Of a DNA stretch of 64,000 nt, positions 39,046 to 43,414 are shown piece after piece; position 1 is the stretch's first letter, and each line of letters starts with the position of its first letter. The stretch comes from Bdellovibrionales bacterium (GTDB lineage Bacteria > Bdellovibrionota > Bdellovibrionia > Bdellovibrionales > Bdellovibrionaceae), in the NCBI GenBank assembly GCA_018266295.1, contig JAFEAQ010000011.1, forward strand, positions 124,001 through 188,000. The letters run 5' to 3'. The notes below the pieces were generated by a model, which searched no databases, was not told where the DNA came from, and worked only from the letters and a program-made list of their open reading frames with translations. The translations under genes and the position numbers were made by a program.

Positions 39046-41097
39046 ATGACATCAGCTAAAACCGCGTCCTTACTAATGCAATTAACCGCAGCCGTCCTGT
39101 TCCTGACTGGCCCGGCAAGCTACGCCGCTTCAGCGCCCCTGTGTAGTGATGTTTTCGTAAGTTCCCCGGCACTTCAGCTGAACAAGGACTACCTCCACTC
39201 TCGGCAGTGGGGCCTGAATCTGAAGGACGGCCTGAAGGGCTACGGAAGCTGGAAGACAGCCCTTTCAGCTTCGATGCCTAACGAAACTCGCTTGAAGGCC
39301 GTTCTGAGATTTCCATTAAAAAACTTGATCATTGCCCCCGGCCACAAGGTCTTGCGCGTTTCCGAACACAGGCCAGACCCAGCCTTGCCGGGATCCAAAA
39401 AAGTGCTTTTAAATGCGATCACGAATGAAACGAACGCCCTCTTGTTTTTAGATATTTGGGATGGCCATCACCGCATCCTATCCGCATTTCAAAATGGCAA
39501 GAAAGATCTCGCGGATCTTCAACGCGATGGTTTTGAGATTCAAGTTCTCATCAACGGGAAACCCGCCGACAGCGGCGACACCTGGAGGCATATTCTTCCA
39601 GCGGCGGCATCAAATCCCAGCTGGCTAGCAAAGATACTTTCCCAAGGCGCCAAGGACGTTGAGGTTTCAGGAGATCAATCGAACTACGCCATGGGCTCAA
39701 GAACAACTCTGGAGCAGCTTGCGAAAAACGAAGCCGAGGCCCGAAAACGAAAAATCGGAATTTATTTCGGCACTTTCGATCCGGTTCATGAAGGCCATGT
39801 ATCTGTCGCAAAAAGCGCGCTGACCGAGTTCGGTCTTGAAAAAGTCATTCTCGTCACAAATGCTCTTCCCGATCATAAGAAGCCGACGCCCCTGGGCTAT
39901 CGCCAGGCCATGGTTATTGAGCGCATAAAAAATGAAGCAGGAATCGAAACCGCCCTCTTTGACTCGCATTTCTATCTTTCAAAATTTGATAAAAGCGTTT
40001 TAATTGAAAAGATTCGCCAGGATCTTGGATCAAATAATATTTACCTCATTGATGGCGGTGACTCTTTTATTAAGCTCCTGAGTCTCAACCAGATTGAGCC
40101 GACCCCGGTCACGAACTATATCGTCAACGCCCGCGGCGAAGACATTCAAGTCCCGGAACATCTCAAAAAGAAAGTTCACGTTGCTACGACAAAAACAGAC
40201 AGTATGAGTTCTTCGGATGTGCGCGCTGAAATCGCCCAAGGTCAAACGCCGGACAGTACAAAAATGAAGCCCACACTGATAAAGATGATTCGCGAATGGG
40301 GACTTTACTCCTCTGGTGAGCAGCCTGCGACTTATAGCAGTGAGCAGCTTTATTCTTATTTAAAAGAAGCAAAGCCCTTAGCCGATTTGCAATTTAAAGG
40401 TGGCGAAGGTTCTGAAAAATACGGACTGACATATCACCATAACGATGTTTGGCAAATCCTGCTCAGTCGCGTGAAAGACATCGGTTACCAAGTGACTTTC
40501 TTCAAACCGGAAGGACCGATGGATCGCAGCTACGGAAACCGGATCGAGGCCGAAGAAGCGGCCTTCTTACTGAACCGCGCGCTGAACATGGATATCGTAC
40601 CGCCAACAAAGACCGTCGCTGGCTTTAGAGCCGGTGGTAAAGTCTTTGAAAAAGCCGCTCTTAGCTATGCCATTCCCAATGCCGAGCGTCTCCTGACACC
40701 CAAACATTTAGATAATTCTCTGGAACAGCAGCTCTTTTTTTCAGATGCGCGGATTTTAAATATTCTTATGCACAACACGGATGCCAACGATAGAAACTTC
40801 CTCATCGGCCGCCACTGGAAAACCGGAAAGTCTGCACCAGTGTTGATAGATTTCTCGCAATCCTTGAAAACCCACGCGACAATGTCTTTAAGTGCTTACC
40901 CCGTCGGCCACACCGGCGAAATCAAGGTTTTCCGCCGCAGCACCCTGGAAGCGCTTAAAAACCTGACGCCAGAAAAGATGAAATTGCTCTTAAGCCCTCT
41001 CTTAACCGATCAAGAGCTTCATGAAATGAATGAGCGCCGCGAAGGAGTTCTAAAATATATTGAGAACGCCGTCAAAACTCCCTCGACGCTTTACTAG
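39046..41097 (+). CDS. exported ParB-like/NadD-like nucleotidyltransferase/PI3-4-kinase-like three-domain protein
   Basis: A 683-residue protein that begins with a likely signal peptide (LMQLTAAVLFLTGPASYAAS, cut about 27-30). Domain 1 (about 80-175) ends in DGHHRILSAF, the ParB/sulfiredoxin-like nucleotide site. Domain 2 (about 235-425) is a NadD-like nucleotidyltransferase: IGIYFGTFDPVHEGH (TxxH and HxGH motifs) and SSSDVR (ISSTxIR equivalent). Domain 3 (about 440-670) resembles PI3/4-kinase-like kinases: TFFKPEG (Lys487), EAEEAA, LNMDIVPPT, then MHNTDANDRNFLI (Asp579, Asn584) and VLIDFSQSL (Asp602). All key residues are visible. ATP is lacking in the periplasm, so a target inside another cell is conceivable (inference). 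No ribosome site is seen before the ATG; a later ATG at 39076 also leaves the signal. Confidence 0.8.
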   Translation: MTSAKTASLLMQLTAAVLFLTGPASYAASAPLCSDVFVSSPALQLNKDYLHSRQWGLNLKDGLKGYGSWKTALSASMPNETRLKAVLRFPLKNLIIAPGHKVLRVSEHRPDPALPGSKKVLLNAITNETNALLFLDIWDGHHRILSAFQNGKKDLADLQRDGFEIQVLINGKPADSGDTWRHILPAAASNPSWLAKILSQGAKDVEVSGDQSNYAMGSRTTLEQLAKNEAEARKRKIGIYFGTFDPVHEGHVSVAKSALTEFGLEKVILVTNALPDHKKPTPLGYRQAMVIERIKNEAGIETALFDSHFYLSKFDKSVLIEKIRQDLGSNNIYLIDGGDSFIKLLSLNQIEPTPVTNYIVNARGEDIQVPEHLKKKVHVATTKTDSMSSSDVRAEIAQGQTPDSTKMKPTLIKMIREWGLYSSGEQPATYSSEQLYSYLKEAKPLADLQFKGGEGSEKYGLTYHHNDVWQILLSRVKDIGYQVTFFKPEGPMDRSYGNRIEAEEAAFLLNRALNMDIVPPTKTVAGFRAGGKVFEKAALSYAIPNAERLLTPKHLDNSLEQQLFFSDARILNILMHNTDANDRNFLIGRHWKTGKSAPVLIDFSQSLKTHATMSLSAYPVGHTGEIKVFRRSTLEALKNLTPEKMKLLLSPLLTDQELHEMNERREGVLKYIENAVKTPSTLY

Positions 41098-42958: not shown

Positions 42959-43414
42959 ATGAGAATCTTCTTTGGCGTTCTTATTTTTCTTTTCTCTTAC
43001 TCTGCTTTAGCGAGCGAGCCTCATCTCAGAAATTTTGTGACTGACTACTGTACAATGTTCCCGGAAGGCACTCCGCAAAAGCCCGATCTATGGAAACACT
43101 GCTGCTTTGAACATGATTTACGTTATTGGTTTGGTGGAGACTCGGCGGATTTGGATTTTGCCGATGAATCTTTGAGACAGTGCGTGAAAGATGTGGCCGG
43201 GAACTTCTGGGCGAATCTCATGTATAAGGGCGTGCGTGAGGGCCACAGCTCGCCGGTGAAGAATCAATATCACTGGAGCTGGGGCTGGGATCCTGAACGC
43301 ATGGACTCCCCTTTGAGCGAGGCCGAAAAGACCCTTATTCGTAAGGATCTTGGCAATCTCGGTTTAGATCCTGCCTACGTTCACGATTTTATCGGTAAAT
43401 ACCATCTCAATTAA
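42959..43414 (+). CDS. secreted phospholipase A2-like protein
   Basis: A 151-residue exported protein, signal peptide to about residue 19 (FLFSYSALAS). Residues 31-62 carry the PLA2 catalytic segment: KHCCFEHDLRYWFGGD with paired Cys48-Cys49 and the His52-Asp53 dyad. The calcium loop normally formed by glycines and Asp is replaced by a CTMFPEGTP stretch, so calcium use is not clear. PLA2 enzymes cut the sn-2 ester of phospholipids, making lysophospholipid and fatty acid. Predators may use it to attack prey membranes (inference). Confidence 0.78.
   Translation: MRIFFGVLIFLFSYSALASEPHLRNFVTDYCTMFPEGTPQKPDLWKHCCFEHDLRYWFGGDSADLDFADESLRQCVKDVAGNFWANLMYKGVREGHSSPVKNQYHWSWGWDPERMDSPLSEAEKTLIRKDLGNLGLDPAYVHDFIGKYHLN

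Follow-up and report, generated by a model that had tools for sequence, protein, structure and literature searches.

We found that the window, a 64,000-nucleotide stretch from a member of the Bdellovibrionaceae, encodes a protein (P0001) in which a predicted export signal precedes three domains, one with a ParB/sulfiredoxin (Srx) fold, an adenylyltransferase of the NadD type, and a kinase of the FAM20/PI4K type. Sequence and structure comparison shows a signal sequence, a likely ParB/Srx fold, a NadD fold whose ATP site is intact, and a complete set of kinase residues. Our tentative reading is that P0001 is an exported multi-step nucleotide-using enzyme, a kinase followed by an adenylyltransferase, which would yield an AMP-capped product, probably outside the cytoplasm of the producer. 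The gene is one ATG-initiated open reading frame of 683 amino acids at window 39046-41097 (+), with no internal stops and a single copy in its genome, and it lies in a 1.26-Mb contig; no comparable frame was found on the opposite strand. The superfamilies of all its modules are already known. A literature search of partial coverage recovered no description of the architecture, and the sequence-only reading, which had stated that no such protein was described, holds to that extent. The gene and its export signal map as follows:

39046..41097, + strand: P0001, ParB/Srx-NadD-kinase fusion, predicted exported
39046..39126, + strand: predicted Sec signal peptide, residues 1-27 (SYA/AS; hydrophobic core 2.07, Lys5 before the core, A-x-A-like site)

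The N-terminus of P0001 (MTSAKTASLLMQLTAAVLFLTGPASYA/ASA) resembles a Sec signal by a home-made score. Most of the separate homologues also begin with a Sec-type signal in this simple home-made test, which scored 29 of the 37 related-family proteins as positive, compared with 104 of 265 neighboring open reading frames. Judged by the score and by conservation in homologues, P0001 looks like a Sec-exported protein, as the sequence-only reading had proposed. The division into three modules made in that reading was likewise borne out, firmly for the NadD and kinase domains and on weak but uniform structural matches for the ParB/Srx domain, and the residues it had named (DGHHR at 139-143, TFDPVHEGH at 243-251, SSSDVR at 388-393, Lys487, Asp579, Asn584, and Asp602) are correctly placed.

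The NadD-type domain was recognized by Pfam, NCBIfam, Foldseek, and VIA, and retains both ATP-site motifs:

39742..40320, + strand: NadD-type nucleotidyltransferase domain, residues 233-425
39766..39798, + strand: ATP-site motif FGTFDPVHEGH (241-251), nearly invariant in the family
40207..40224, + strand: ATP-site motif SSSDVR (388-393), with S388, S389, and R393 invariant

Its fold is firmly predicted. The domain matched Pfam CTP_transf_like (8.7e-13) and NCBIfam NadD (2.4e-18), the best 50 Foldseek matches of its AF2 model were nearly all NadD/NaMN adenylyltransferases, and VIA returned a Z of 21.8 with an rmsd of 2.0 over 189 residues. P0001 shares with NadD the fold and the GTFDPVHEGH and SSSDVR motifs for ATP, but differs in being fused and predicted to be exported, in falling far under the equivalog cut-off (66.4 bits against 150 in NCBIfam), and in its position in the tree, where one long branch (support 87/100) split 19 exported from 11 housekeeping NadD domains. 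Alignment revealed that the SYT(I/V)DT loop and the ring-stacking Trp (after IGAD) are absent from P0001 and from all ParB-NadD relatives, while the housekeeping NadD of the same genome has both SYTIDT and the Trp. This normal gene sits elsewhere, in an obg-nadD-rsfS-rlmH-like cluster, which rules out the P0001 domain as the housekeeping copy. Given the loss of these nicotinate-pocket motifs, the acceptor may be something other than NaMN or NMN.

The pocket bears directly on an alternative that we consider unlikely, namely that P0001 is an NAD-repair effector whose NadD domain makes NaAD or NAD outside the producer, for example in NAD-depleted prey, the other domains serving as regulators. The NadD fold is unmistakable, and phage pathways of NAD reconstitution have been described (PMC12774641). 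Furthermore, a 1095-amino-acid relative (L070/P0002; L070:5585-8872, - strand) joins NAPRTase, NadD, and an isochorismatase/nicotinamidase-like domain in what looks like a one-polypeptide NAD-salvage chain; its signal sequence is apparent by eye and was not detected by the home-made test. Judging by this protein, some relatives export NAD chemistry. However, it retains a Trp at the position matching the ring-stacking Trp of NadD, whereas P0001 and the ParB-NadD family have neither this residue nor the SYT loop. In addition, no NAD-salvage gene adjoins P0001, and its score lies well under the NadD equivalog cut-off. The altered nicotinate pocket is evidence against plain NAD synthesis by P0001, and the sequence-only reading implied too high a likelihood for such synthesis in prey.

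The kinase domain occupies the C-terminal part of the chain. It was placed by matching a homologue profile to FAM20 structures and by hhalign to a PI3/4K-like set, and its candidate catalytic residues are invariant in 12 kinases:

40408..41076, + strand: FAM20/PI4K-type kinase domain, residues 455-677
40504..40506, + strand: Lys487, beta-3 lysine (FFKPE), invariant
40552..40554, + strand: Glu503, likely salt-bridge partner of Lys487, invariant
40780..40797, + strand: Asp579 to Asn584, catalytic loop (within NTDANDRN), D and N invariant
40849..40851, + strand: Asp602, metal-binding Asp (LIDFS), invariant

Direct family scans of P0001 (Pfam, NCBIfam) did not recognize the domain. PF00454 (PI3_PI4_kinase) was not among the Pfam matches of P0001, the family model found nothing in the genome that carries it, and the domain scored 12-15 bits against a FAM20C (PF06702) gathering score of 26.8. 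Since the full-length structural model leaves the kinase region unmodelled (pLDDT 30-45), the assignment rests on profiles. The homologue profile found only FAM20A/B/C among meaningful matches in the PDB (E 0.002-0.014), and when compared with the PI3/4K-like set of the phylum (profiles A2 and A7, respectively) it aligned over its length with an hhalign probability of 99.4% (E 3.9e-21). The A7 set in turn matched FAM20A/C at 1e-14 and type II PI 4-kinase (PI4K2) at 2e-12, and nine of its ten members matched PF00454. At the level of profiles, the C-terminal domain can be firmly regarded as a FAM20/PI4K-type kinase with a full predicted catalytic set. It resembles FAM20 kinases and type II PI 4-kinases (PF06702, PF00454) in profile and in the K-E-D-N-D set, and FAM20 also in secretion, but it is bacterial, scores under both family cut-offs, and is fused to ParB-NadD. 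Across the phylum, PF00454 was above its cut-off in 27 of 241 genomes; PI3/4K-like kinases of 630-770 amino acids (L142, L144, L145, L146, and L150) occur in genomes of the genus to which Bdellovibrio sp. BIN15 belongs, and one 1639-amino-acid frame (L106, in G117:C59) matches PI3/4K-like kinases twice within a single chain.

In L063, L065, and L068, the gene of the standalone kinase adjoins that of an exported metallophosphatase in which every calcineurin-type motif is present, and the same holds for a related fusion in a distant genome (L056). The phosphatase profile matched TRAP/purple acid phosphatase at 9e-7, and most copies carry a signal sequence:

L063:8383-9252: TRAP-like phosphatase beside the kinase gene
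L065:6263-7156: TRAP-like phosphatase beside the kinase gene
L068:10117-11037: TRAP-like phosphatase beside the kinase gene
L056:7406-8335: TRAP-like phosphatase beside the fusion

A TRAP-like phosphatase was found in 10 of 14 genomes with the kinase and in 22 of 359 overall (hypergeometric 7e-11, or 3e-6 by genus, both made optimistic by relatedness). Kinase and phosphatase possibly form a writer-eraser pair, a pairing that parallels animal FAM20C with TRAP and offers a testable two-gene system. A second kind of partner, a protein of the Exo_endo_phos family, lies next to ParB-NadD in three genomes, with a signal in the two complete copies:

L045:11039-11821: Exo_endo_phos-family protein
L049:8721-9503: Exo_endo_phos-family protein
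L055:3-665: Exo_endo_phos-family protein

Neither a TRAP-like phosphatase nor an Exo_endo_phos-family partner was detectable in the genome of the window.

FAM20 kinases act on secreted substrates, FAM20B on a sugar and FAM20C on secreted proteins, and HldE makes an ADP-sugar. Substrates of this kind, together with the reversible modification suggested by the exported phosphatase, would accord with the proposal that P0001 modifies the envelope of the producer itself, or its exported proteins or glycans, rather than prey. We do not think this likely, given that the periplasm is believed to be free of ATP, that the families occur sporadically, and that their genes are not embedded in an envelope biosynthesis operon. 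The absence of periplasmic ATP is an argument that the protein acts in another cell, but does not amount to evidence for it.

The remaining domain, at the N-terminal side, was assigned from an AF2 model (pLDDT 78), VIA matches, and the family alignment, the last of which also defines its motif:

39280..39705, + strand: ParB/sulfiredoxin-fold domain, about residues 79-220
39451..39474, + strand: D136-I-W138-D-G-H141-H142-R143 motif of the ParB domain

No sequence-family library, Pfam included, gave a match to this domain, Foldseek with its model produced none that was significant, and ParBc_2 (PF08857) went unmatched in Pfam and reached an hhalign probability of 5.5%. VIA, in contrast, listed 17 structures at Z>=2.4, all from the ParB/Srx superfamily (Z 2.4-4.3), led by 2hwj (ParBc_2, Z 4.3), SerK (3.9), and Srx (3.6) and including SbnI serine kinase, ParB, KorB, Noc, and PadC. 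Each Z alone would say little, and it is the uniformity of the matches that suggests, weakly but consistently, a ParB/Srx-superfamily fold. P0001 shares fold and HHR motif with this superfamily (ParBc_2, SerK/SbnI, sulfiredoxin, Tox-ParB), but differs from it in the absence of a significant sequence match and of the ParB HTH or dimer domain; it also lacks the QVxGLxxYI segment typical of its own ParB family. In 13 sequences of that family, D136, W138, and H141-H142-R143 are invariant, as is A97-P-G-H100. The DGHHR motif that the sequence-only reading had emphasized is present, but its Asp139 is not invariant, being mostly N, and most of the family has the form [ND][AG]HHR. A catalytic role for this Asp is unsupported, since it varies within the family.

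Tox-ParB domains strongly conserve DGHHR (Zhang et al. 2012, PMC3482391), the motif found at residues 139-143 of P0001. This shared motif brings up the possibility, very unlikely in our view, that P0001 is a toxin of the polymorphic or polyvalent type, with the ParB domain as a nuclease-like toxin and the other domains as extra warheads. Polyvalent and polymorphic toxins likewise carry several effector enzymes in one exported or injected chain, and multi-domain polyvalent proteins contain both ParB and kinase domains (PMC5512222, PMC3482391). Unlike them, P0001 has no phage or plasmid context and no toxin delivery module, and its kinase belongs to another family. It has a simple Sec signal only, no HINT, RHS, or pre-toxin parts were found, and a Pfam scan of the neighbors (ThiF, helicase, phospholipase-like, and GDPD) revealed nothing resembling an immunity gene.

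Relatives were searched in 369 Bdellovibrionota genomes. The halves of P0001 proved to be mostly separate proteins, ParB-NadD in about 12 genomes and the kinase in about 12 others, and no genome was seen to carry strong copies of both separate halves. Scanning genome contigs with a single protein gave no match, but scanning with the alignment recovered 13 ParB-type loci, 12 of them ParB-NadD in Bdellovibrionota-type MAGs and one myxobacterial with a degenerate NadD. Viral contigs held no P0001-type match, and plasmids and phages nothing beyond generic NadD similarity. Only in P0001 and L056 is a kinase attached to ParB-NadD; the L056 protein (846 amino acids, from a distant genome) repeats the ParB-NadD-kinase order, its kinase belonging to a different subfamily (hhalign 91.7%), a recurrence that makes an assembly error unlikely. 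It appears highly improbable that the domains have no function in common and were merely brought together by a recent gene accident or by misassembly: the exact fusion is a single case among the genomes searched and its halves otherwise occur in different genomes, but the 683-codon frame is open within a large contig, GC is similar across the NadD-kinase junction (0.458 and 0.474), the catalytic residues are intact, and L056 has the same domain order. L056 has lost the HHR motif of the ParB domain, and L069 the NadD motif. The Myxococcaceae locus (L089:6605-7753) combines a ParB part with a degenerate NadD part in which HxGH is lost, the same loss as in L069. Consequently, not all modules appear to be needed everywhere.

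In other NadD proteins of this group, the fusion partner is IucA/IucC (P0003), SelO (P0004, P0005), a SLOG-like domain (P0008), or NAPRTase together with isochorismatase (P0002). IucA_IucC belongs to the PKinase clan of Pfam and SelO has the same kinase-like fold (PMC9758233). Exported NadD domains with kinase-fold partners therefore number five proteins (P0001, L056, P0003, P0004, and P0005), joined to four kinase-fold branches. Exported fusions of SelO-like (AMPylase fold) and NadD domains were observed at L072:688-3066 and L074:7687-10032.

We return to the reading in which P0001 is an exported kinase-adenylyltransferase. A phosphotransferase module, comprising the C-terminal kinase and perhaps also the SerK/sulfiredoxin-like ParB domain, would phosphorylate a target, and the NadD-like module would then join AMP from ATP to the phosphate of this target, giving an AMP-capped product. 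RibF, NadR, and HldE each combine a kinase and a HIGH-type adenylyltransferase in one chain, and by analogy with them the two activities of P0001 may act in sequence on one target. The likeness is one of operation and not of membership, since these enzymes have unrelated kinase folds, are cytosolic, and act on known substrates. Because ATP is required, the site of action would be an ATP-containing compartment outside the producer cytoplasm, perhaps most likely prey being consumed, and in relatives the exported TRAP-like phosphatase might reverse the phosphorylation. The proposal that P0001 is a prey effector, made in the sequence-only reading, is plausible, but the patchy distribution shows that the gene is not a core predation gene and fits an accessory function; in the genus containing a named Bdellovibrio MAG, the two-domain form was found in one draft genome and in none of the other members searched. 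In a bolder version, the one-chain kinase and adenylyltransferase would attach phospho-AMP, a modification not described before, to some protein, glycan, or metabolite belonging to a different cell, and exported NadD-like domains joined to diverse kinase-fold partners would make up a new class of extracytoplasmic modification enzymes; this we regard as quite doubtful.

The fusion of modules that are mostly separate in relatives suggests multi-step chemical modification outside the cytoplasm of the producer, possibly inside prey. More generally, exported nucleotide-dependent enzymes (NadD-like, FAM20/PI4K-like, SelO-like, and ParB/Srx-like) recombine as domains in Bdellovibrionota. Should prey be where they act, they would serve bacterial predators as effectors that modify proteins or metabolites. 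Elsewhere in the window, positions 42959-43414 (+) encode a small exported protein that resembles phospholipase A2 (CCFEHDLRYW) and has no Pfam match.
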